From Candidatus Arcticimaribacter forsetii (lineage in GTDB: Bacteria; Bacteroidota; Bacteroidia; Flavobacteriales; Flavobacteriaceae): 64,000 nt of DNA. A program made the position numbers and the translations under genes. The notes below the pieces were generated by a model. It did not search any database. It saw only the letters and a program-made list of their open reading frames with translations, and had not been told where the DNA came from. Location: positions 1,849,501 through 1,913,500 of the forward strand of contig NZ_OU342399.1 of the NCBI RefSeq assembly GCF_910589745.1. Reading direction: 5' to 3'. This document shows positions 50,097-64,000 of this stretch, one piece after another (within the stretch, counting starts at the first letter, position 1; each line of letters opens with the position of its first letter).

Positions 50097-50169
50097 GGTA
50101 CCTTAGCTCAGTTGGTAGAGCAATGGACTGAAAATCCATGTGTCCCTGGTTCGATTCCTGGAGGTACCA
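50097..50169 (+). tRNA. tRNA-Phe (anticodon GAA)
   Basis: A 73-base tRNA with acceptor GGTACCT/AGGTACC (50097-50103 with 50162-50168), discriminator A50169, D arm (GCTC-AGTTGGTA-GAGC), anticodon stem ATGGA/TCCAT around CTGAAAA, and T arm with GGTTCGATTCC. No encoded CCA. Its 3' end serves as integration site for the elements downstream. Confidence 0.98.
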
Positions 50170-50171
50170 CT
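50149..50171 (+). repeat. attL: tRNA-Phe 3' end, copy 1 of 3
   Basis: This 23-base block, from the T-loop to two bases past the discriminator, is identical to 57629-57651; its last part, CTGGAGGTACCAC, is also found at 56266-56278. It forms the left boundary of the integrated elements and restores the tRNA. Confidence 0.85.
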
Positions 50172-50306: not shown

Positions 50307-51962
50307 ATGGGACTTTATTACCGATTAGACCACAAGAAAACCACCCCCCAACTTCTTCATAGTAAGGATGTTAGGGTGGTTATAGACTACTACTATAATG
50401 GAAAAAGAACCAAGATTTCTACGAACGTTTCTTGTTTAGTTAAAGATTGGGATAAAAAATGGAGAGATAAAACCTCCAAAAACCCAATAAAAACAACAGA
50501 TAAGAACCATAGGGTAAAGAACTTACTTATTAGAAATAAGTTAGATGAGATAAATGGTATTATACTCACCATCCAAAAACAAGATAAAGAACCCATAGTA
50601 GAACTCGTAAAGAGTTATTTACGAAAGGAAAGAAAGGAAAGAAAGGAAAAGAAAGACGATACACACAAAGAACTCCATTTTTTACCCCTCTTCACAGAAT
50701 ACGAAAAATGGATTAAAGGAGAGTATAACCCCCAAAGAGATAGTACCAAAAGAGGGGTTATGAGTAGTATTAAACAGATAATAGAATACACCACCCATTA
50801 CCAAAATAAAAACAATACACTCCTTTTTCCTGATGAGATAGATAGGGATTGGGTATATGGATATATCAAGTGGAGCTATGATACAAAAGGATTAAAACCC
50901 TCTACAATAAACAAAAGAATAAAAGTACTCTCCAACTTTTCCTCTTGGAGTAAAGAAAAATACAATACCTCCTTCCAAATAAGAAAACCCCAAAATGTTT
51001 ATTTAGGAAATGACGAAAACCTTGATATAGTTTTTCTTAAACGTGATGAGGTTATTAAACTCCACAAATACGATAAGTTTTGTTTTACCAATACAGAACA
51101 CGAAAAGATACTCACTAAAGAAAAAAGGTTGAGTTATATTTTAGATAAGTGGAAAAGAAAAGATGGAAAAGAAAAAGAGGTTAAATACACCACTTTTGAG
51201 GTATATAAAGATATGTTGTTATTCCTCTCCAACGTAGGTTGTAGATGGGGAGATATGATTAAAATGAAAGTGAGTGATATAGTTTATGATGATAAAACAG
51301 ACCCTGTTTTAGGATATAAAAGGGGTATGATTACCTTTTATATGGAAAAAATAAGACAACAAAGGGAACCCGTTAAAGTACCAAGAAATAGGTTAGTTTA
51401 TGAGATATGGAGGAAATACTCCAACGGAAAACACGGACAACACTACCTTTTCCCGAGAACCGAATTAGGAAATAGTATATCCAACAATAAGTTTAATAAG
51501 TATATAAAAGACGTTTGCAGAATAGTAGGGTTAAACAGAGAGATAAACCAACGTGATTGGGATTTGGTAGGTACAATAGAAAAAACCGAAAGATTACCCC
51601 TGTGGAGTTTAGTTTCTTCCCATATTGGTAGAAGAACGTTTGTACGGGAACAAATAGAAAGAGGAGTGCCAACTCGTATAATACAAAGTATGACGGGACA
51701 CAAAAGTAGAAAGGTATTTGATATGTATTATGAGGTACTTGATAAAGAAAAAACCCTCGTAAATGATGACTTGTTTTTAGATTATGAGGAAATCAATACA
51801 CCCCCAAAAACCTCCACAAATAAACCTCCACAAAAAACCCCTTCCCCCTTTTCCAAAGAACAAAAAGATAAAATAGAAAAACTTAAATACTCCCTTGATG
51901 AAGGGTGGATTGACCAAAATAAGTTTGATGAACTCTTCCAAAAAATAGTAGTCGGTGATTAA
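50307..51962 (+). CDS. Tyrosine recombinase / site-specific integrase
   Basis: A 551-residue recombinase. The N-terminal part reads as an arm-binding domain (VVIDYYYNGKRTKISTNVSC); residues about 140-225 are SAM-like core binding; the catalytic domain follows with Arg in GCRWGDMIKMK near 312, HxxR in SSHIGRRTF near 440, His in MTGHKSRKVF near 466, and nucleophile Tyr in MYYEVLDKE near 474. The set R-HxxR-H-Y is complete, so it should be active. Codon use (many CCC, ACC, CTC and AGA) differs from core neighbours. Confidence 0.93.
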   Translation: MGLYYRLDHKKTTPQLLHSKDVRVVIDYYYNGKRTKISTNVSCLVKDWDKKWRDKTSKNPIKTTDKNHRVKNLLIRNKLDEINGIILTIQKQDKEPIVELVKSYLRKERKERKEKKDDTHKELHFLPLFTEYEKWIKGEYNPQRDSTKRGVMSSIKQIIEYTTHYQNKNNTLLFPDEIDRDWVYGYIKWSYDTKGLKPSTINKRIKVLSNFSSWSKEKYNTSFQIRKPQNVYLGNDENLDIVFLKRDEVIKLHKYDKFCFTNTEHEKILTKEKRLSYILDKWKRKDGKEKEVKYTTFEVYKDMLLFLSNVGCRWGDMIKMKVSDIVYDDKTDPVLGYKRGMITFYMEKIRQQREPVKVPRNRLVYEIWRKYSNGKHGQHYLFPRTELGNSISNNKFNKYIKDVCRIVGLNREINQRDWDLVGTIEKTERLPLWSLVSSHIGRRTFVREQIERGVPTRIIQSMTGHKSRKVFDMYYEVLDKEKTLVNDDLFLDYEEINTPPKTSTNKPPQKTPSPFSKEQKDKIEKLKYSLDEGWIDQNKFDELFQKIVVGD

Positions 51963-52032
51963 AATACCCTCTCAGACTTAAGAAGATTTATGATTACTTG
52001 CATACCACAAATTTCTTCGCTACCTTCACCCT

Positions 52033-52182
52033 ATGAAGGTTAAAGTTTCCTCTCTTACTCACCATCCAAAGAACAAAGAAATCTACACCCTATCCTATAT
52101 AGAGGAACTGATGGAAAACATCTCAGAGGTTGGATTATTACAACCTCTAATTATTGATTCTCAATATTTTAATTTTATTTAA
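52033..52182 (+). pseudogene. Truncated ParB-like N-terminal domain
   Basis: A 49-residue frame beginning MKVKVSSLTHHPKNKEIYTL and continuing to ELMENISEVGLLQPLIID, then an unrelated SQYFNFI and stop. The pattern (hPxN, then EL..SI.E.GLLQPLII) is the start of the ParB/sulfiredoxin nuclease domain; the expected G-x-R-R segment is lost. In Bacteroidota mobile elements this domain is frequently fused to a DNA methyltransferase, and a methyltransferase tail occurs at 57862. It sits 70 bases after the integrase. Confidence 0.7.
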
Positions 52183-52282
52183 TTGAGTGTAAGAGGAAAT
52201 TTTTCATCACTGTCAGGATTATTTAAATAATTAATAATATAATCCTCATAGTTTTCTCTATCTTCCGGCTGAAAAAAACTCT
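52183..52282. other. Spacer between ParB fragment and nuclease-like gene
   Basis: 100 bases, AT-rich, with no start, terminator or repeat that I can support. It is probably the scar where the rest of the ParB gene was replaced. Confidence 0.4.
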
Positions 52283-52891
52283 ATGACTTATCTGAATATA
52301 ATTAAGAAGTCTTGCGACAAGATAATTATCCAAAATAATAATGAAGAGAAGTATCTAAATGAAAAGTCAGTTCAAATGAAACTTGCTATTGATATTTGGA
52401 AAGAAAAAAATATTGAACTTGAACTTGAAAAATGTTTTAACTATAAATCAATTGATAAAACCTACACCGATATTTTCATTAAAGACTATATTAAAATTGG
52501 TATTGAAATTAAATTTAAAACAAGAAAAGTTGAGGGTCATAAATATATAAATCAGGGAGCACAAACAAATGGAAAACTTAATTCTCTTATAGATATAAAA
52601 AGACTCCTGGATCTTAAGAAGAAAAAGGAGATAGACTCGGGATATTTTATATTTATATCTAATGACTACCTATATTGGAAAAAAAGTAGAATTGGGAAAA
52701 CAAATTCTCATCAATATAGTTTTGAAAATGAAAAAAAATTAAAAACAAAATTTGAAGAACCAAATTGGTCATCAAGAACTTATTCTGATGAAATTGATTT
52801 AACAGAAATTAAGACTGAAAAAATATTATGGAATGGAAAAAATAATGGAGTAAATAAAAATTCTTTTAGATATTTTGTTGTTGAAGTTTAA
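52283..52891 (+). CDS. Predicted PD-(D/E)XK nuclease-like protein
   Basis: A 202-residue soluble protein not assigned to a named family. It has an N-terminal acidic helix (NEKSVQMKLAIDIWK), then TDIFIKDYIKIGIEIKFKT, which gives Asp63 and Glu75-x-Lys77 on adjacent strands, as in restriction-endonuclease folds; GAQTNGKLNSLIDI follows as a Gln-containing helix. It is convergent with the next gene and follows the ParB fragment. A restriction or repair nuclease is inferred from motif and place, not from homology. Confidence 0.55.
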   Translation: MTYLNIIKKSCDKIIIQNNNEEKYLNEKSVQMKLAIDIWKEKNIELELEKCFNYKSIDKTYTDIFIKDYIKIGIEIKFKTRKVEGHKYINQGAQTNGKLNSLIDIKRLLDLKKKKEIDSGYFIFISNDYLYWKKSRIGKTNSHQYSFENEKKLKTKFEEPNWSSRTYSDEIDLTEIKTEKILWNGKNNGVNKNSFRYFVVEV

Positions 52892-52908: not shown

Positions 52909-53496
52909 TTAATTTTTCTTAAAGGAATCTATAAATTCAATATAATTTGAAACTAGAAGGGTTTCTAACTCTAATAACTTATTGTGAAATTTTTCTAAAT
53001 AAAAATCATCCAAATTAGATTCATCCCAATCAAACTCCTCTTCAATATCTTCAATATCTTCATATTGGTTAATACCATATACAAATGATCCACTAGGATT
53101 ATATGATTCTTCTTCAAAAGTTCCTTTTAAATAACAATCTGAATCAATTTTTTGAAGATCATCTCTCAAAAATGATATAAAATTTTTGGGTAACCACCAA
53201 GCTGATCTAATTACTATATTACAAAACTCTGGATTGTCATCATGATTATACTCTACATATAACCATTTAGGTCCAATATATTTTTCCCAAATTTTATTGT
53301 TTGGATAATCAACCTCTCTATTCCATCCATCTTTTTCATCAGAAAAACAATAATTTGTCCCTTCTATATTATTGATTATATCTAAAGATGTAGTTTCATA
53401 ATTTCCCTTTTTACGATTAAATATTTCATTTAGACGTATAGGAACTTTTGGATTTTTTGATACCACAGTTAGAAAAGTTCTCATTTCGTTTGCCAT
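52909..53496 (-). CDS. Api92-like (DUF1281-type) protein
   Basis: A 195-residue acidic protein. GPKWLYVEY (near residue 73), then IRSAWWLPKNFISFLRDDL and KGTFEEESYNPSGSFVYG resemble the ferredoxin-like fold of Api92/DUF1281 proteins found on phages and plasmids, where a KWxYVE, SAWxxP, and YxExxxxFxG order is common. Function of the family is unknown. It is the last gene of a minus-strand run from 55061. Confidence 0.5.
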   Translation of the reverse strand: MANEMRTFLTVVSKNPKVPIRLNEIFNRKKGNYETTSLDIINNIEGTNYCFSDEKDGWNREVDYPNNKIWEKYIGPKWLYVEYNHDDNPEFCNIVIRSAWWLPKNFISFLRDDLQKIDSDCYLKGTFEEESYNPSGSFVYGINQYEDIEDIEEEFDWDESNLDDFYLEKFHNKLLELETLLVSNYIEFIDSFKKN

Positions 53497-53526: not shown

Positions 53527-54000
53527 TTATTTGATTTCCTCATACATACCTTTTTCCTCACTCCATCTTACTATCATTTCCTCATCAGTCAAAATTGAAA
53601 TCGATTTGTATTCCATAAAATCTTTTTCCCATTTATTCTGAAGATCCATAAGGATGTTCTCTAGTTTTTTGGATTCCTCATCAGTAAGTCTATCTTTAAA
53701 AATATGAAGATGATTTTTATCAGACATATCTCCAAAAACAGTCCATAAAAATGGAATAATTTTCTGAATATCAACTTGGAAACTAGATCTATCTCTAAAT
53801 GAAACTTCTTTAAATTCATTCTCTTTCCAACTAATTATAAAATCATTTAATAATTGATTTGGATTTGGACCATCTGTTCTTGTAAATTTTTTGTTTTTTC
53901 TAAGTAATTCAAATTCACATAATACTACGATTTGAAAATCTGAGAAATTTTGGAAATACTCAAAATCACTTTTTTTTGGTGGATTATTATATTTTTTCAT
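53527..54000 (-). CDS. Uncharacterised protein
   Basis: A 157-residue soluble protein with no recognisable domain. It is rich in charged residues, with an aromatic-rich N-terminal helix (SDFEYFQNFSDFQIVVLCEF) and a C-terminal acidic helix (EEMIVRWSEEKGMYEEIK). It sits 30 bases before the Api92-like gene and 13 after the paralogue-family gene, so likely one transcript. Confidence 0.55.
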   Translation of the reverse strand: MKKYNNPPKKSDFEYFQNFSDFQIVVLCEFELLRKNKKFTRTDGPNPNQLLNDFIISWKENEFKEVSFRDRSSFQVDIQKIIPFLWTVFGDMSDKNHLHIFKDRLTDEESKKLENILMDLQNKWEKDFMEYKSISILTDEEMIVRWSEEKGMYEEIK

Positions 54001-54013
54001 AATTTTTTTTGGG

Positions 54014-54427
54014 TTATCTTATCATAAACATATCTTCATCAACCAAAAATAATTGTAAATCTTTTATTTTAAGGGTTTCAGAATAATTTTTTATTGAGAA
54101 TTCATATTTCATTTTATGTCCCCCAAAACCAAGATTTAAATCACTTATACAGAAAAATATTCCATTATTATCAATGTTACTTATTAAGATATGGTGATAG
54201 GTAAAAAAAGTTTTTTTCTTAGTTTGATCCGTTCTTTTTTTTTCCCAATAGATATCTGAAATTTTATATTTTCTTCTTTGGTGTTTTAACTCTTTACCTC
54301 TTTTTCTAAAATATCTTTCTTTTTCTCTTTCTGACACAGGTAACCACTCTAATTTTCCATGTAAATCAAAATTTGATTCAGAAAAAAACTCTGAAATAAT
54401 AAATTTTAGTAAATTATGATAATTCAT
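54014..54427 (-). CDS. Uncharacterised protein, paralogue of the one at 61711-62118
   Basis: 137 residues from the ATG at 54427. Shared with the second copy are L-x-G-x-LEW-x-P, KER-x-F-x-K-x-GKELK-x-Q, the KYKI block, HH-x-x-I-S-x-I, and a final M-x-MIR. The middle block is highly basic, the HH pair could bind metal or act in catalysis, and the end is hydrophobic. No named family is recognised. The two copies lie in different integrated segments. Confidence 0.65.
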   Translation of the reverse strand: MNYHNLLKFIISEFFSESNFDLHGKLEWLPVSEREKERYFRKRGKELKHQRRKYKISDIYWEKKRTDQTKKKTFFTYHHILISNIDNNGIFFCISDLNLGFGGHKMKYEFSIKNYSETLKIKDLQLFLVDEDMFMIR

Positions 54428-54439
54428 ATTATACAATAT

Positions 54440-54646
54440 ATGTCTTTTTTTGAATTTATAGATCAATTAATTTATATAATCAAAAACCTAGGAATCTCCT
54501 TTTGGATTTCAGTAATCTTAGTTTCTCCTCTCTTTATGATTTTTGAAGAATTGGTGCAAAATATAATAACTAAAATTTTATATATAGTGGAGTGTATGGA
54601 CAATCCATGCAAGTGTTTTCTGTTATTTGATAACCAGTTATATTAA
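54440..54646 (+). CDS. Possible small membrane protein or acyltransferase remnant
   Basis: A 68-residue frame starting MSFFEFIDQLIYIIKN with one strong hydrophobic segment (FWISVILVSPLFMIFEELVQN). That segment resembles the C-terminal end of acyltransferase-3 membrane proteins. Its 3' 77 bases run antisense into the lipoprotein gene. It may be a remnant; a true small gene is not excluded. Confidence 0.25.
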   Translation: MSFFEFIDQLIYIIKNLGISFWISVILVSPLFMIFEELVQNIITKILYIVECMDNPCKCFLLFDNQLY

Positions 54647-55061
54647 GTGGGGGTTCATCATCAAATATATCGGTAAGATAGATAGTATACTCACCAACAG
54701 GAACTGGATTGTTAAACTCTTCATCAGTAAACCAACTAAGTACTGAGTAAACAGGAATTGTAAAACTCAAATTGTTAATCCAAACCCAATAATTTGAATC
54801 AAAAATGGTTTCTACTAAAGGAACTCCATTAATAACATACTTCTCATGTAGTTCATCAAGTTTTCCTTTTACGGTGAAATACTTAAATCCTTGATAGGAC
54901 ACTCTCCAATAACCATTACTATCTAGATATGAACTATAAGGAACATCTACATAAAATACCGAATCACATTTTCCATCCTTACAAGGGTAAAAAATTGGTT
55001 CGTCTAATTTGGAACACCCGATTAAAGTGGATAAAAACAGAAGTATGTAGATATATTTCAC
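54570..55061 (-). CDS. Lipoprotein of unknown function (element 1)
   Basis: A 163-residue protein with signal peptide and lipobox LIGC (Cys16), then CKDGKCDSVFYVDVPYSS, and a late Cys pair in NTCMDCPYTP. No family recognised. Four cysteines after the lipidated one suggest disulfides in the periplasm. It is the first gene of the minus-strand run that continues with the 54014 paralogue. Confidence 0.6.
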   Translation of the reverse strand: MKYIYILLFLSTLIGCSKLDEPIFYPCKDGKCDSVFYVDVPYSSYLDSNGYWRVSYQGFKYFTVKGKLDELHEKYVINGVPLVETIFDSNYWVWINNLSFTIPVYSVLSWFTDEEFNNPVPVGEYTIYLTDIFDDEPPLNITGYQITENTCMDCPYTPLYIKF

Positions 55062-55131
55062 ATATTAAATTTACAAAAAATCATTTTTCAATTTTACCCT
55101 ATCATTTTCCAAAGGGAAAAAAATTGACTCC

Positions 55132-55300
55132 GATATAAAAACCACCCCGATTAGGGCATAGGGGGAAGTACTTTCTCAGTTACGAGAAACTTCATCCTGT
55201 AAATACTGATACATTATTCAATTCAAAAGTTTTTAAGAGAGTCTATCAAATCTTCTCAACACTTCATTCTGATACACTTTGATTATTTAACCTCTTAACT
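55132..55300. repeat. ~170-bp dispersed repeat, copy A
   Basis: Nearly identical to 61256-61426, with a long perfect core around GATACATTATTCAATTCAAA. It covers the last codons and stop of the HTH gene (NQSVSE end) and the region after it. It contains TTTCTC-N6-GAGAAA, a short hairpin. Confidence 0.8.
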
Positions 55301-55476
55301 TTAATATTCCCTTTCAGACTATTTTCCCACTCTAATAAATCCTTTTCTGTAATGTATTTTGAATGAGTAGAGACTTCAATCATTTTCAATCCTCTATTTC
55401 TTCTCCAATCTTCTATGGTTACTCTATCTACTCCATAGAGTTCCATTAAATCCTTTTTACTCAATCTTCTCTCCAT
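55264..55476 (-). CDS. Excisionase-like helix-turn-helix protein
   Basis: A 70-residue protein. LSKKDLMELYGVDRVTIEDWRR (split at residue 5-26) is a winged HTH of the MerR/HTH_17 type, followed by STHSKYITEKDLLEWE. Such proteins act as excisionase or plasmid control factors beside tyrosine recombinases. The C-terminal KRLNNQSVSE is encoded by repeat A. It overlaps the upstream 64-residue gene by about 20 bases. Confidence 0.7.
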   Translation of the reverse strand: MERRLSKKDLMELYGVDRVTIEDWRRNRGLKMIEVSTHSKYITEKDLLEWENSLKGNIKVKRLNNQSVSE

Positions 55477-55651
55477 ATACTTTAATCTCCTCTTTTTCTA
55501 AAAGTTCTTTAAACTTCTTGCTATAGGTTTCTCTATCTCCACTTATTCTGTACTTCTCAATCTTATGGTAGAAGTTCTTAATCAATTCTGATTTCTTTTT
55601 TAGAATATCTACCATGTGTCTTGCTTGTTCATCTGTTATATTTCTTAACAT
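55457..55651 (-). CDS. Small helical protein next to HTH gene
   Basis: A 64-residue charged, helical protein (NITDEQARHMVDILKKKS...) of no known family. Its stop overlaps the HTH start, which suggests translational coupling and a joint role in element control. Confidence 0.5.
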   Translation of the reverse strand: MLRNITDEQARHMVDILKKKSELIKNFYHKIEKYRISGDRETYSKKFKELLEKEEIKVYGEKIE

Positions 55652-56139
55652 ATTATTTCCTTTCAGAGTATTTTAAAAAACAGTAATAACCTCGTACTCT
55701 AAATACTTAATCAGTTCGAGGTTGATACTCTTTATTATAAACTTTTATAATATTTAAAACTCATCTAATACTTCACAATTAGATATAGTGAGTCCATTAA
55801 GGGAAATTCCCTTTTAAAAAACTATTCCCATTTTTCAGTTGAATCTAACAGATACTCAAACAAGAATTCAACCTATCTGCATTTTAACGAGTTCAGACCT
55901 TTCTTATTTACCTCTCGGAACACTAATGACTGGTTTTACCTATCGGTGAGTGTTGGTCATTATCGGGCACTTCCCCCATGTGTCAGGTGTAGTATCTCGG
56001 TAGATTAAGTATTTCTTAAAGTAATCTACAACTCAGTAGAACAATTGGTTCTATATATAAGTATTAGAAACTTTAGAAAACGTAAAAAAATGTGAGAAAA
56101 AGGATGAAAATAACTTCTGCCAAATCTAACAGAGGTTGT
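55652..56139. other. Non-coding region, right part of element 1
   Basis: About 490 bases without a credible gene. AACCTCG (55688-55694) and CGAGGTT (55717-55723) form a hairpin with a 22-base loop. The stretch 55890-55990 is less AT-rich than its surroundings and could carry an RNA or a regulatory site, but I recognise no family. It is the likely control region for the divergent ends of the element. Confidence 0.4.
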
Positions 56140-56214
56140 TAGTACCCAGAGTTTAGTACCCAAAGGATTTTGATAGTACCCAAAAGGTACTTAAATTAGT
56201 ACCCACGGGTACTA
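56140..56214. repeat. Right arm-type repeats: TAGTACCC cluster
   Basis: TAGTACCC occurs at 56140-56147, 56154-56161, 56174-56181 and 56197-56204, and as its inverse GGGTACTA at 56207-56214; the last two form an inverted repeat with a 2-base centre. The cluster ends about 50 bases before the att copy at 56266, as expected of integrase arm sites. Confidence 0.65.
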
Positions 56215-56265: not shown

Positions 56266-56278
56266 CTGGAGGTACCAC
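56266..56278 (+). repeat. att copy 2: 13 bases of the tRNA-Phe 3' end
   Basis: CTGGAGGTACCAC, identical to 50158-50170 and to 57638-57650. Sequence before it does not match the tRNA, so it is a recombined site and not a tRNA gene. Right end of element 1 and left end of element 2. Confidence 0.75.
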
Positions 56279-56281
56279 CAT

Positions 56282-56477: not shown

Positions 56478-57509
56478 ATGAAACTATCTATTAAATCTAT
56501 ACTCGTACTAATATTTTCAGTAATTATCACAAGTTGTTCATCGGATGATGGTGGTGATGAAATGGTTACACCTACTCCTCAAGAAACTTTTGGTAATTGG
56601 TCACCTGATTTTACAAATCAGACTTCTAATTTTACTCAAACTAGAACAGGTTCTCAAGGAACTGAACAAACAAGAACAATTAATGTTACTTCCTCCTCAA
56701 ATACAACCTCTTCTACAGAAGAAATTTTAGAGGAAGATATTAATGAAGATGGTGACTTATTTGAAGATATTGAAGTCATTACAATAACATATACAGGTTC
56801 TGAAAACCTTGGAAACCACCAGATTATCTCACATGAGGTTTTAGTAGATAATGATATGGAATTAAAAGTCGGGAATGATACTTGGTCCTTATCTAATGGA
56901 CATATTATGGATTATGGTAATGATTTCGTGTGTTCTGGTGAAGAAAGATATCATAATCTAGATCTTGTTTTGTACAGTGAAGGAAAGAGTCCTGACACTG
57001 ATGGATATACTTCAGGAGATGGTGTTGAAATCTCTCTCTTTTTATATCCCTCTGAATCAGAAATTGTTCCAGGTAATTATATGAATTACTTAGAATTTTG
57101 GAATTCAAACTCAACTATTTTAAATTCTACATTCGATAGTTACAACGAATTAATAGAATTTTTAGGGGATTTAGATGATGAATCAGAAGAAGGTTTTGAA
57201 CAAAAATTTTGTGAAATTTCTGAAACAAGTTTTTTAAGTTATGTTGAATGGGGGGAGTATGAAAATAACGGTAACACCACGAGTGATGGAGATGAATTGG
57301 ATATTTCAAACTCCAATTTAAGTATTGAAATATCCGATAGTAATGTTTACACAATAAAATTTGAAGGATGTTTTACTAAAACTAATTTACCTTTAAGTTT
57401 CTATTACAAGGGATATCTAGGATATTACGATAAAACATATACCGAATCTGGGAATGGTGATAAATCCTCGTCAAAACCAAAAAATACAAATTTGTTTTTT
57501 AATAAATAG
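56478..57509 (+). CDS. Lipoprotein of unknown function (element 2)
   Basis: A 343-residue lipoprotein with lipobox IITSC (Cys20) followed by SSDDGGDE, the acidic form seen in Bacteroidota surface lipoproteins. Residues 40-80 are low complexity (Thr, Ser, Gln, Asn). The remainder is acidic and beta-rich with Cys near 152, 242 and 295. No family recognised. As the only gene of its segment it is the cargo. Confidence 0.65.
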   Translation: MKLSIKSILVLIFSVIITSCSSDDGGDEMVTPTPQETFGNWSPDFTNQTSNFTQTRTGSQGTEQTRTINVTSSSNTTSSTEEILEEDINEDGDLFEDIEVITITYTGSENLGNHQIISHEVLVDNDMELKVGNDTWSLSNGHIMDYGNDFVCSGEERYHNLDLVLYSEGKSPDTDGYTSGDGVEISLFLYPSESEIVPGNYMNYLEFWNSNSTILNSTFDSYNELIEFLGDLDDESEEGFEQKFCEISETSFLSYVEWGEYENNGNTTSDGDELDISNSNLSIEISDSNVYTIKFEGCFTKTNLPLSFYYKGYLGYYDKTYTESGNGDKSSSKPKNTNLFFNK

Positions 57510-57584: not shown

Positions 57585-57628
57585 ACATGTTTTTGTAACT
57601 AATTGTTTGTCAATAATATATGTGTATC

Positions 57629-57651
57629 GTTCGATTCCTGGAGGTACCACT
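57629..57651 (+). repeat. att copy 3: 23 bases of the tRNA-Phe 3' end
   Basis: Identical over 23 bases to 50149-50171, from the T-loop to two bases past the tRNA end. The 5' tRNA part is missing. This is the outermost boundary of the tandem integrations that I can identify. Confidence 0.88.
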
Positions 57652-57654
57652 TTT

Positions 57655-57686
57655 AAACCCTTTAAATCATTGATTTAGAGGGTTTT
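57655..57686 (+). terminator. Intrinsic terminator after att copy 3
   Basis: A 15-bp stem with one G-T wobble joins 57655-57669 (AAACCCTTTAAATCA) to 57671-57685, followed by TTTTGTCTTTT. It could be the original chromosomal terminator of tRNA-Phe or that of an older element. Confidence 0.75.
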
Positions 57687-57704
57687 GTCTTTTCATACAC
57701 CTCC

Positions 57705-57770
57705 TTGTGTAAAGTTTTGTGTAAAGTTATACGGTTCTTTTTTGTATCTTTGGTACTCATTGTGTAAAGT
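57705..57770. repeat. Three TTGTGTAAAGT direct repeats
   Basis: Copies at 57705-57715, 57717-57727 (12 bp apart) and 57760-57770. The position, just after the terminator following an att site and with a 12-bp phase, parallels the left arm sites of element 1. Confidence 0.6.
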
Positions 57771-58026
57771 ATGACAATAAATCTTGTACCATTATTTAGA
57801 AAGAAAAAGGAACTTTATCTACCTGAAGATGAGGTTACTATTCTTGTAAGATTATTTAGGAGAACATCCCGCTCCTTTCCCTGAAGAAATAATCACTCTA
57901 CCTATTCTTCAAACTTCAAAAGAGTTTGAATTGGTATTAGATCCTTTTATGGGGAGTGGAACTACAGGTAGAGTTTGTGATAAGTTAGGAAGAAGTTTTG
58001 TGGGGTATGATTTGAACTCATTTTAA
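57771..58026 (+). pseudogene. Fusion of integrase-like N-terminal stub and DNA methyltransferase tail
   Basis: From the ATG at 57771 the frame reads MTINLVPLFRKKKELYLPED and then EVTILVRLFRR, which resembles a recombinase arm-binding domain, and stops at TGA after 37 residues. In the next frame, from 57862, EHPAPFPEEII and LVLDPFMGSGTTGRVCDKLG, then GRSFVGYDLNSF, are the C-terminal motifs of an N6/N4 DNA methyltransferase (DPFxGSGTT binds AdoMet). The two halves are out of frame, so a deletion joined two gene ends. Confidence 0.65.
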
Positions 58027-59605: not shown

Positions 59606-60064
59606 ATGATTAAACACAAACCTAATAACCTTTGGGAAGAAATAAGACCTTTATTTAACTATGTTGGAAAATATCACAAAAATAAATTAGATAAAGTCGA
59701 TCTTGAATACGAAAGAGGACTCAAATCAAAAGTCTCAGAAAACGGTCTAATTTATGTTTTAATTGTTGATGATTATATAAAGTATATTGGAGAGTCCAAA
59801 AGATACAGTAGACCTCTTAATTACCACAAAAACAATGTAATGAAAGATGTTAGAGAAGGAATTAAAAAAGAAGTTTTATACAACAATAAAGAGGTCAAAG
59901 TCTATATATATGAACCTTCAAAACAAAAAACATTCATTTTAAAAGAGAATGATGATAAATTTGAATTTAATGATATAAATCTTTATAAATCAATTGAATC
60001 GTACTGGATAAAACTAAATAATGAACAAGAAAATAAAGGTCATTGGAATAATAAGATGTATTAA
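59606..60064 (+). CDS. GIY-YIG-like domain protein
   Basis: A 152-residue protein. GLIYVLIVDDYIKYIGESKR (near residues 47-66) provides the GIY and YIG strands, with an Arg after, and SIESYWIKLNNEQENKGHWN near the end supplies the Glu and Asn typical of the GIY-YIG nuclease core. A nuclease role is possible; the family spans repair, homing and restriction enzymes. Confidence 0.6.
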   Translation: MIKHKPNNLWEEIRPLFNYVGKYHKNKLDKVDLEYERGLKSKVSENGLIYVLIVDDYIKYIGESKRYSRPLNYHKNNVMKDVREGIKKEVLYNNKEVKVYIYEPSKQKTFILKENDDKFEFNDINLYKSIESYWIKLNNEQENKGHWNNKMY

Positions 60065-61255: not shown

Positions 61256-61426
61256 GATATAAAAACCACTCCGATACCCATTTTAGGGAAAAAGTATTTT
61301 CTCAGTTACAAGAAACCTCATCTTTGAAATACTGATACATTATTCAATTCAAAAGTTTTTAAGAGAGTCTATCAAAACTTCTTATTCCTTCATTCTGATA
61401 CACTTTGATTAATTAACCTCTTAACT
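61256..61426. repeat. ~170-bp dispersed repeat, copy B
   Basis: Matches 55132-55300 with few differences and encodes the same C-terminal NQSVSE and stop for the gene at 61390. See copy A. Confidence 0.8.
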
Positions 61427-61710: not shown

Positions 61711-62118
61711 CTACCTAATCATTATCATTCTCTTATCTAATAATTCGTATTTACATTTTGAATAATCCGATAAATTCAAATAATCAATTATTTTAAATTT
61801 ATATCTAAATGTTTGTCCCATTCTTTCAACTTTATGATCATTCATAATGTAAAATACACCATCTTTTTCAATTTCACTGATAACAATTTGGTGGTGTGAT
61901 GAAACGTTATCATCTTGGGTTTTTCCTTCCCAAAAAACCTGTTTAATTTTATATCTACTTTTTTGAGGTTTTAATTCCTTCCCAAACTTTTTAAAATGTC
62001 TTTCTTTCTGTTTTTCCGTTGTAGGGTACCATTCTAAACTCCCTTTTAAAGTAAAAATATGGTTTGGGAAAAATTGAATAATTAATTCTTCAAGTAATTC
62101 ATCTAATTTAATTTTCAT
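61711..62118 (-). CDS. Uncharacterised protein, paralogue of the one at 54014-54427
   Basis: A 135-residue protein that aligns along its full length with the element 1 copy: LKGSLEWYPTTEKQKERHFK, then GKELKPQKSRYKI, SSHHQIVISEI and a final MIMIR. It starts 40 bases after the DUF2779-like gene and probably shares its transcript. The repeated pairing of this family with different neighbours suggests a movable module. Confidence 0.65.
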   Translation of the reverse strand: MKIKLDELLEELIIQFFPNHIFTLKGSLEWYPTTEKQKERHFKKFGKELKPQKSRYKIKQVFWEGKTQDDNVSSHHQIVISEIEKDGVFYIMNDHKVERMGQTFRYKFKIIDYLNLSDYSKCKYELLDKRMIMIR

Positions 62119-62158: not shown

Positions 62159-64000
62159 TTATTTAGTTTTTTCTAAAAAATGTTCAAATATCATAACCAT
62201 TGCCATGGTGTCTAATTCACAATACTTCAATAATGACTTTCTAATACTCTCTTTTAAATTTTGATCTAAATCACCAAATTGAAGATATGCGTACGCTGTC
62301 ATAGCGGCACCACCATCATTAATTGTACTAAATGATAAATTTTCTCCGTTTAGATAACCTACATAATCATCATTTATATTTGAGAAAACTGGAGGTAAAC
62401 TTTTATAGGGATCCAATTCCTTATCATTTAACCATGAATGATTAGAAAAGTTTTTAGATGGAATTTGATTTGTACCATAAATTGGTTTCGAATACTTAGT
62501 TTTTAGAAATGAAGAATCATTGATCACCGATGGTAAAATATATTTTATACTGTTTGAACCTTTAGAATATGGAGAATAATAAAGAGAAACAATTAATTTA
62601 TACAAATCAACCATATTGTTCTTTGTAGGTTTCCACTCTCCTCTATTACCTCTTGTAGGTTGAGAAATCTCTTTAATAAAATCAATTAATTCATTTCTAT
62701 CTGGAACCTCAATAGAAGACTCATTAATTAATTGAGTGTAAATTTTATTGAGTATGGTATTTTCATGATTATGATACCTAAATATCGTTCCTTTCAAATT
62801 TGGAGAAAACTCATTCTTTAATGATCTAATAAAACTATAATTAGGGAACTCTGGATTGGTGTTTAAATATTCTCCTTTATGTTCAATTTTATCATCATCA
62901 TAAAGGTGGTAGGAATATTGAAAAGCAACTGATTCATAAGGTGATCTATTTTTATGAAATGGTATAGCCACTCCACTAGTTTCAAAATCAATAAAATGAT
63001 ATGGTTTTTCTAATCCTTGTATAACATCACTCAAATATTCATGATAGTAAGGAGTATTATCCCTCTCTTTATCTTTTTTTATCTGAATGTATTGTCTGAA
63101 TGAAGTCGACATTCCATTTTCATCCTCAACTTCATTATCAATATATTCTTCTTCGTTGACTTGATCGATTAAAAAATTCCCTTTATCAGTCTCTTTTTTT
63201 GTAGCTCTCCAAATCCTTTCAACCAAGTTAGATTCTTCATCGAGATTGTAACCAGAATTTTTAAAACATTCGTGAAATCCACTTTTCAATCCAAAAAAGG
63301 AATCATTTCTGTATTGACACTTGAAACAATCATGATCTATTTTTTTCCAATCTCTAATCTTCTGTTTGTATAATTTTGAAAGATACTCAATATGATTTTC
63401 AAAACTATTTTTTCCTATTTTCTCCTTCTCAATGAAATCACAGACTTGATCTACATTGATGACTTTTAAGGGTAATTTTCCAAGCTCAGTAATATTTAAG
63501 TCACCGCTTACCTCAACAGATTTTCTTCCATTTTTATTACTGATTTTAAAATACTGATTTAAACCGTCAATAGAAGTTTTCGAAAGTTTATCTGCCAAAA
63601 CAAGGTGAGTATTTATTTTCATTGAAGGAAATAGATTCCGAACAACATATCTTTGAAAGGCTATATCATAAAGATAAAACTTCCAATTAGGATCAATTTT
63701 CCTTTTACCCTCATTTTCTCCTCTTTTATACTCTTTTATAAATACCTTAAATTCTTGGTCATCCACACTTTCATACCCCCAAGACTTTGATTTTACCTCG
63801 TAAATATCGATTTCATTACCCTTCTTTTGGAGAAGATCAACCCTAACAAAAAGATTATTGAATAAAAAAGCAGGTTCAGCAATTGAAACTTCTTCATTTT
63901 CTAATTTGTGATTAGTCAACTTGACAGATTCAACATAATCTAGACTTTCAACAGTTATGTCATCGATATATGGATTATCAGAAATTAAAAATTTTGCTAA
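62159..64000 (-). CDS. DUF2779-type protein, putative Cas4-like plus DEDD nuclease (cut by window edge)
   Basis: The frame is open to the right edge (at least 613 residues), so an internal TTG near 63919 is not the start. The first third has FVRVDLLQKKGNEIDIYEVK, an Asp-x(n)-Glu-x-Lys pattern as in Cas4/PD-(D/E)XK nucleases, with later Cys (CFKCQYR and HECFKN) that could bind Fe-S. The C-terminal part starts with HFIDFETSG and ends with YCELDTMAMVMIFE, an RNase-H-like DEDD exonuclease pattern known as DUF2779. Function in cells is not known. Confidence 0.7.
   Translation of the reverse strand, partial: LAKFLISDNPYIDDITVESLDYVESVKLTNHKLENEEVSIAEPAFLFNNLFVRVDLLQKKGNEIDIYEVKSKSWGYESVDDQEFKVFIKEYKRGENEGKRKIDPNWKFYLYDIAFQRYVVRNLFPSMKINTHLVLADKLSKTSIDGLNQYFKISNKNGRKSVEVSGDLNITELGKLPLKVINVDQVCDFIEKEKIGKNSFENHIEYLSKLYKQKIRDWKKIDHDCFKCQYRNDSFFGLKSGFHECFKNSGYNLDEESNLVERIWRATKKETDKGNFLIDQVNEEEYIDNEVEDENGMSTSFRQYIQIKKDKERDNTPYYHEYLSDVIQGLEKPYHFIDFETSGVAIPFHKNRSPYESVAFQYSYHLYDDDKIEHKGEYLNTNPEFPNYSFIRSLKNEFSPNLKGTIFRYHNHENTILNKIYTQLINESSIEVPDRNELIDFIKEISQPTRGNRGEWKPTKNNMVDLYKLIVSLYYSPYSKGSNSIKYILPSVINDSSFLKTKYSKPIYGTNQIPSKNFSNHSWLNDKELDPYKSLPPVFSNINDDYVGYLNGENLSFSTINDGGAAMTAYAYLQFGDLDQNLKESIRKSLLKYCELDTMAMVMIFEHFLEKTK

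Follow-up and report, generated by a model that had tools for sequence, protein, structure and literature searches.

A divergent predicted PD-(D/E)XK-fold nuclease as probable defence cargo of a degraded tRNA-Phe element array in Candidatus Arcticimaribacter forsetii

The gene at 52283-52891 of the window (the whole 64,000-nucleotide stretch analysed, G000:C1:1849501-1913500 of a genome that consists of a single contig of 2.03 Mb) is best explained, with a probability that we put at about 0.55, as a metal-dependent PD-(D/E)XK DNA nuclease carried as cargo by an element at tRNA-Phe and independent of the ParB-methyltransferase whose first codons precede it. Judged from its sequence relatives and a structural model, it adds a divergent member to a known superfamily; it is probably functional and carried as defence cargo in a degraded array of such elements. 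Rather than forming half of a restriction pair, the enzyme probably acts alone as a weapon against foreign DNA. The original prediction had read the locus as a possible remnant of a restriction system, in which a nuclease was kept behind a broken ParB-methyltransferase gene; our reading does not require the nuclease to be a restriction enzyme deprived of its methylase.

The gene is an uninterrupted open frame on the plus strand with an ATG start, and its 202-aa product reaches full length, through the conserved C-terminal strand. Codon-position G+C (0.32/0.22/0.18) is similar to that of the adjacent ORFs. The D-x(11)-E-x-K motif that had been noticed directly behind the ParB fragment is present as D63-x11-E75-x-K77. 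By itself this motif is a mere hint, since it also occurs in 725 of 5000 shuffles of the lysine-rich protein and in 6 of the 52 stop-to-stop frames of at least 150 codons in the window; it is the match to a hold-out profile and the predicted fold that raise the nuclease call above chance.

As a direct query, the 202-aa protein gave 59 pattern stretches in the genome collection and 11 in viral contigs, none of them confirmed, and it found nothing in plasmids, phages or the PDB and only its own genome among 100 related ones. Weak direct matches in the bacterial family (2, in 2 of 397 genomes) and in the phylum (14, in 13 of 395 genomes) were all judged to be chance from their alignments, several being interrupted by stops; ORFs were listed for L002, L003 and L014 among these 16. 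Relatives were reached through a consensus sequence used as bait, which matched 5 of the 395 phylum genomes including the window's own, the latter match not being independent because the bait was composed with the window protein in view. Pairwise comparison with the window protein gave E-values of 2e-8 for L058 (29% over 156 columns), 7e-5 for L057 and 0.023 for L061. A search with alignment A2 confirmed 109 relatives from 160 candidate stretches in the genome collection, of which 80 were kept, and 3 of 56 in viral contigs; L058 has matches in 14 of 72,556 plasmid records and in none of the phage records. Members occur in Bacteroidota, Bacillota, Spirochaetota, Pseudomonadota, haloarchaea, Nanoarchaeota and other groups, and one relative, L071, is from Flavobacterium limicola.

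Alignment A3 comprises the window protein and 66 of 83 loci, the 17 left out being near-copies, truncated or over-long ORFs. A profile of the 66 relatives without the candidate scores the window protein at 76.2 bits (E 4.4e-22) and reports none of 2000 shuffles, which places the protein in this unnamed family of 200-240 aa. E27, E49, D63, E75 and K77 are retained in 67 of 67 rows, and the family-invariant residues are E27, E49, D63, I74, E75, K77, K79, T80, A93, D104, R107, N127, Y131, W162 and W183; E75 and K77 lie inside a search pattern, and E27, E49, D63, A93, D104, R107, Y131, W162 and W183 outside both. D63 and E75 are separated by 11 residues in 2 rows, 12 in 54, 13 in 8 and 14 in 3. 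At an overall identity of 18-34%, the window protein keeps 15 of the 17 columns that are invariant in the other 66 (F145 is changed to Y and Y179 to E), and 11 of the 30 columns conserved at 90% or more are changed. Its branch far exceeds all others in length (2.6-2.9 changes per site; median 0.34), and its position in the tree is therefore unsure. With a profile of A3, the window protein included, the family was found in 1 of 19 genus genomes and 5 of 397 genomes of the bacterial family, this genome counted in both, and in none of the 18 other genus genomes, several of which are 65-90% complete. At most 3 of the 67 members are matched by any one family of Pfam, NCBIfam, PADLOC or PHROGs (best E-values 0.0014, 0.0021, 0.00055 and 0.0024, respectively); in PADLOC-DB 2023, the window protein has no family at E ≤ 1 and no model matches more than 2 of the 67. 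Among the literature titles listed, none names this nuclease family or a ParB-methyltransferase element, a nameless family being hardly searchable by words.

The AF2 model, with A3 as its alignment (pLDDT 86.7, pTM 0.85), has the order H-H-E-E-E-H-E, comprising helices at 3-21 and 27-42, strands at 45-53, 59-67 and 71-79, a helix at 94-113 and a strand at 119-126; a C-terminal strand lies at 196-201, and residues from about 150 to 190 are less certain. The model contains the alpha-beta-beta-beta-alpha-beta core of PD-(D/E)XK enzymes, with D63 and E75-x-K77 on adjacent strands as the putative catalytic D and (D/E)-x-K. In BFVD, Foldseek ranks first a PD-(D/E)XK nuclease from Halogranum tailed virus 1 (E 4.5e-5 at probability 1.00, with a query-length TM-score of 0.39), the sole one of 539 matches at E ≤ 0.001. 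Against the PDB, no Foldseek match reaches E ≤ 1e-3; the best is SSO0001 (E 3.6e-3, probability 0.87), followed by SduA and HincII, and the first 20 rows include some unrelated chains. In VIA, 153 of 996 chains have Z of at least 5 and none reaches 8, a level below 8 being common according to the tool. The 50 rows listed are mostly EcoRV and HincII entries (families missing among them are not counted as excluded), with Z of 7.8 for 3ijm, 7.7 for EcoRV, 6.9 for SwaI and 5.9-6.6 for Hjc; OkrAI chains also rank high. Searched against PDB sequences, the family profile has one match (E 0.86), a chain that bears the name Cas4 family, with the similarity lying around the first D and E-x-K. The assignment of the modelled protein to the PD-(D/E)XK superfamily is safe, given the fold comparisons and the conserved D/E/K triad, and at the level of fold and residues they support the original prediction of a nuclease; the product would presumably be active as one. 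None of the named sequence families in the libraries fits the protein.

The gene lies in an array of elements behind tRNA-Phe(GAA) (50097..50170, +; ARAGORN and Rfam RF00005), the integration site, whose 3' end forms att copy 1 (50149..50171, +; direct-repeat families D1/D3). This tRNA is the single Rfam match above gathering; five matches below gathering, at 50097-50170 (minus strand) and 57651-57760, were taken as chance. The tRNA is followed by the 551-aa tyrosine integrase of element 1 (50307..51962, +; Pfam Phage_integrase 2.6e-11, Arm-DNA-bind_5 7e-9) and by the leader and first ~44 codons of a ParB-methyltransferase gene (51991..52182, +). At the junction 52165..52282, similarity to the methyltransferase stops near 52165, as seen in the comparison with L163, and a 32-codon open remnant lies on the minus strand (52182-52277; best non-self match E 0.95). 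Behind the nuclease gene, four minus-strand ORFs (52909-53496, 53527-54000, 54014-54466 and 54570-55061) gave nothing above the curated cut-off and are taken as cargo. They are followed by a repeat block (55090..55225), which recurs between cargo genes of sister elements, and by a backbone core (55226..56140) that consists of a gene for a 70-aa HTH_17 protein (55264..55476, -; Pfam 3.8e-6, near-identical in L028 and L029), a 64-aa ORF and about 480 bp of non-coding DNA. Att-like copy 2 (56266..56279, +; D1) is the probable right end of element 1. A lipoprotein-like ORF, recognised by eye (56478..57509, +; no Pfam family above cut-off), stands alone between it and att-like copy 3 (57618..57651, +; D3, sharing 22 identical bp with the tRNA 3' end), after which come a probable integrase N-terminal remnant of another element type (57771..57860, +) and the ParB-methyltransferase 3' end of a different element (57858..58026, +). 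The partial tRNA 3' end copies at 56266 and 57618-57651 indicate about three units stacked behind the tRNA, and an extra copy of the repeat block and core start at 61256..61426, the remnant of one more element, extends the array past 61 kb. The mobile-element setting that had been proposed stands, with a tRNA, a tyrosine integrase, far-side repeats of the tRNA 3' end and sister elements that share the site.

Several smaller observations concern the array. For a Bacteroidota-type promoter motif, one TAAGTTTG with TTTG or TTG upstream, at 51920 (+), lies within the integrase 3' end and was given no weight, and none was found on the plus strand from 51921 to 52400. By eye, three ORFs from different elements of this genome resemble one another (window 54014-54466 and 61711-62118; L163 9572-9970). 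A DUF2779 protein (Pfam 1.6e-19) is present in the array at 62159-63919, with a longer ORF at 660-2654 of L168 on the minus strand, and in L109 the nuclease relative has a DUF2779-like ORF (by eye) at a distance of three genes. GIY-YIG-like ORFs were recognised by eye in the array (59606-60064) and beside the nuclease relatives L074 (5242-5709) and L094 (4010-4474); Pfam gave no match for those of the window and L094.

Sister genes confirm that the methyltransferase ends at 52033 and 57862 are what the original prediction took them for, the start and the tail of ParB-methyltransferase genes. The frame 52033-52182 has 49 codons, of which the first ~44 match ParB-methyltransferase (89% protein identity over residues 1-44) before a stop, and the DNA of 51991-52162 shows 77-90% identity with the leader and the beginning of the sister-element genes; on its own, the fragment matches ParB_N weakly (Pfam E 0.008, under the curated cut-off). 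The full-length copy in L031 (454 aa) carries ParB_N (5.9e-9) and N6_N4_Mtase (1.6e-46; both Pfam). The tail, 57858-58016, matches these genes at their 3' end with 84.5-93% identity, the value for the full-length copy in the same genome being 93%. The idea that both ends come from one broken gene was rejected, since two further att-like tRNA repeats lie between them and the ends belong to different stacked elements. Upstream of the tail, att copy 3 is followed by a stretch that aligns with the att-integrase interval of L029, and the 29 codons ahead of the tail, the remnant at 57771..57860, resemble the L029 integrase start (1 of 2000 shuffles was as good; tblastn E 0.03-0.05 among 20 sequences); they show no similarity to the integrase at 50307..51962 (an equal score in 1916 of 2000 shuffles). 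Consequently, the tail is most likely the shortened front of another element rather than the other end of the gene at 52033. Five full-length ParB-methyltransferases are present in 4 of the 19 genus genomes, namely one each in G003 and G005, two in G013 and one in this genome (G000:C1:202966-204327, 454 aa), and G008 has residues 69-454 plus a damaged start. Loose starts or tails also occur at G000:C1:1538916, 1944751 and 211298 and in G012:C1 and C5 (L164-L167), some of them at sites where an integrase was not seen.

Relatives of the integrase are present in 9 of the 19 genus genomes, this one included, and their surroundings were read in nine stretches. The full plan, found in L028 and L029, consists of the tRNA, the integrase, the ParB-methyltransferase, variable cargo, the repeat block, the 70-aa HTH gene with conserved non-coding DNA, and att; L030 is the same with a damaged methylase. 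L031 (methylase full-length) and L033 (methylase shortened) are without most of the HTH/core part, L032 has the integrase without a ParB-methyltransferase, and L034, L035 and L036 run up to contig edges or contain fragments. The window carries the nuclease gene and the four minus-strand ORFs between a ~44-codon methylase stub and the repeat block, whereas in sister elements the methylase is full-length and the nuclease absent. The core counterparts (10536-11446 of L028, 13758-14665 of L029 and 8216-9128 of L030) are 91-94% identical in DNA to that of the window, although the integrases are only 39-59% identical in protein to the window's; this suggests exchange of the core or a strong constraint on it, and it is perhaps an origin or packaging region. 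The repeat block, of about 50-130 bp, stands after cargo genes, and in several places part of the 3' end of the methyltransferase gene comes next; besides the window copy, it was found in L029 (9922, 13452 and 13623), L031 (9745), L033 (5024 and 7974) and L163 (4771 and 7818). The arrangement looks as if cargo were exchanged like cassettes between fixed sequences.

A motif screen of 832 ORFs at 82 loci of relatives, with flanks of up to 6 kb that are shorter at contig ends (L133 had no called ORF), found a ParB-methyltransferase at none of the 82 loci and an accepted DNA-methylase motif at 5, although a screen by motifs alone can miss methylases. The accepted motifs are in L083 (+4), L094 (+3), L104 and L107 (both +2, C5 type) and L109 (+2, HsdM-like), and four of the nine lines returned (L071, L128, L131 and L139) were rejected by eye. 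In L109, an HsdS-like ORF (by eye) adjoins the relative and the type I methylase is nearby. Of the four further relatives in the bacterial family, two lie in or beside type I R-M operons: the L174 gene is inside hsdR-X-hsdM-hsdS (Pfam), 5 bases after hsdR and with a 4-base overlap with hsdM, and that of L175 follows hsdR and a peptidase-like gene (by eye). DNA modification genes were mostly missing beside the relatives, a setting that the original prediction had named as refuting it, and the ParB-methyltransferase wholly so, but a looser tie to restriction or defence survives through these two.

Among the other neighbours, a GmrSD gene lies four genes downstream in L066, and integrase or serine-recombinase ORFs (by eye) adjoin the family gene in L068, L083 and L132. 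Macrodomain proteins are found at 6 of the 82 loci and ADP-ribosylglycohydrolases at 4 (9 loci in total, one with both), always in the same orientation as the nuclease gene and at positions -1 to +2. The macro and ARH profiles were seeded with proteins that were later recounted, only L107 and L114 being newly added by them, and L104/L107 and L111/L114 are near-copies and thus not independent; L121, a near-copy of L119, has neither gene at the positions listed. Pfam on 144 neighbours (A4; mostly the genes adjoining 72 loci, with some hand-picked second neighbours, after ten near-copy loci and ORFs above 1000 aa had been dropped) gave Macro in 5 and ADP_ribosyl_GH in 3, among the top 25 families listed. 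Most relatives adjoin unrelated genes with nothing recurrent, and defence-type neighbours are a minority, which suggests defence use for part of the family. As a separate observation, the haloarchaeal loci L130, L131, L135 and L139 all encode a TBP-like protein (by eye) of 183 aa upstream; on the downstream side, an ORF of more than 1900 aa is present in L131 and L139, and pieces of it in L130.

A restriction-modification pair, in which the full-length ParB-methyltransferase elsewhere in the chromosome protects in trans, has in its favour that this 454-aa enzyme exists, that the nuclease begins right behind a methylase start and that EcoRV, SwaI and OkrAI chains stand high in VIA. Like the type II enzymes EcoRV and HincII in fold and size class, the window nuclease differs from them in having no cognate methylase beside its gene, where only the ~44-codon fragment is left. 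The fragment and tail are ends of ParB-methyltransferase fusions as known on mobile elements, but the nuclease belongs to no such module in any sister element or relative examined. Four full-length methylases in three of the 18 other genus genomes, and fragments in others, occur without any member of the nuclease family, and together with the sister elements and the 82 loci of relatives this makes the pairing that the original prediction had implied very improbable.

A structure-specific or repair nuclease of Hjc or Cas4 type, processing branched or broken DNA for the element or host without a part in defence, is unlikely. It would fit the fold, the best PDB match in Foldseek, SSO0001 (a Cas4-family protein), the weak profile match to a chain named Cas4 family and the Hjc chains in VIA. 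It would also fit E27, an invariant glutamate in a helix before the D...E-x-K core, which is reminiscent of Hjc. A housekeeping role, however, ill fits the very patchy occurrence in the bacterial family, and the neighbours that recur are R-M, macrodomain or mobile genes. Cas4 has a four-cysteine iron-sulphur cluster, which is ruled out in the window nuclease by its having only two cysteines, C11 and C51. It is likewise unlikely that the gene is drifted cargo that is dead or dying: the long branch, the 11 changed conserved columns and an array full of deletions speak for it, whereas the frame is intact to the C-terminal strand, the catalytic residues are retained and codon-position G+C is similar to that of neighbouring ORFs.

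Under the preferred reading of independent nuclease cargo, the gene occupies the place that the ParB-methyltransferase body has behind the integrase in sister elements. The methylase body would have been replaced by nuclease cargo, with the leader and ~44 codons left over, which may still supply transcription. The enzyme would cut DNA by metal-dependent hydrolysis at the D63/E75/K77 site, in a putative defence against phages or competing elements. Host DNA would be spared because the target, be it modified bases, strand ends or branched DNA, is missing from it, and not through the ParB-methyltransferase. Function may nonetheless have been lost, given the two changed invariant residues, the long branch and the decaying array. 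A bolder version, to which we give little credence, sees in this uncharacterised pan-prokaryotic family a stand-alone immune enzyme that acts on chemically marked DNA, triggered by ADP-ribosylated or otherwise modified DNA; if it were true, the pairing with macrodomain and ADP-ribosylglycohydrolase genes (mostly in Bacillota) and the insertion into type I R-M operons would point to such a trigger.

As far as their descriptions go, tycheposons and PICMI-type satellites resemble the elements described here in tRNA site, tyrosine integrase, fixed backbone and exchangeable cargo. In these small flavobacterial elements, integrase and ParB-methyltransferase recur as partners, with exchange of cargo around the two ends of the methyltransferase. 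The nuclease family is coherent and testable, with the signature E, E, D-x(11-14)-E-x-K-x-K-T, D-x2-R, and its relatives span bacteria, archaea, plasmids and viral contigs. The interest of the finding comes mainly from this family, which is widespread, unnamed in the libraries used and partly linked to defence.
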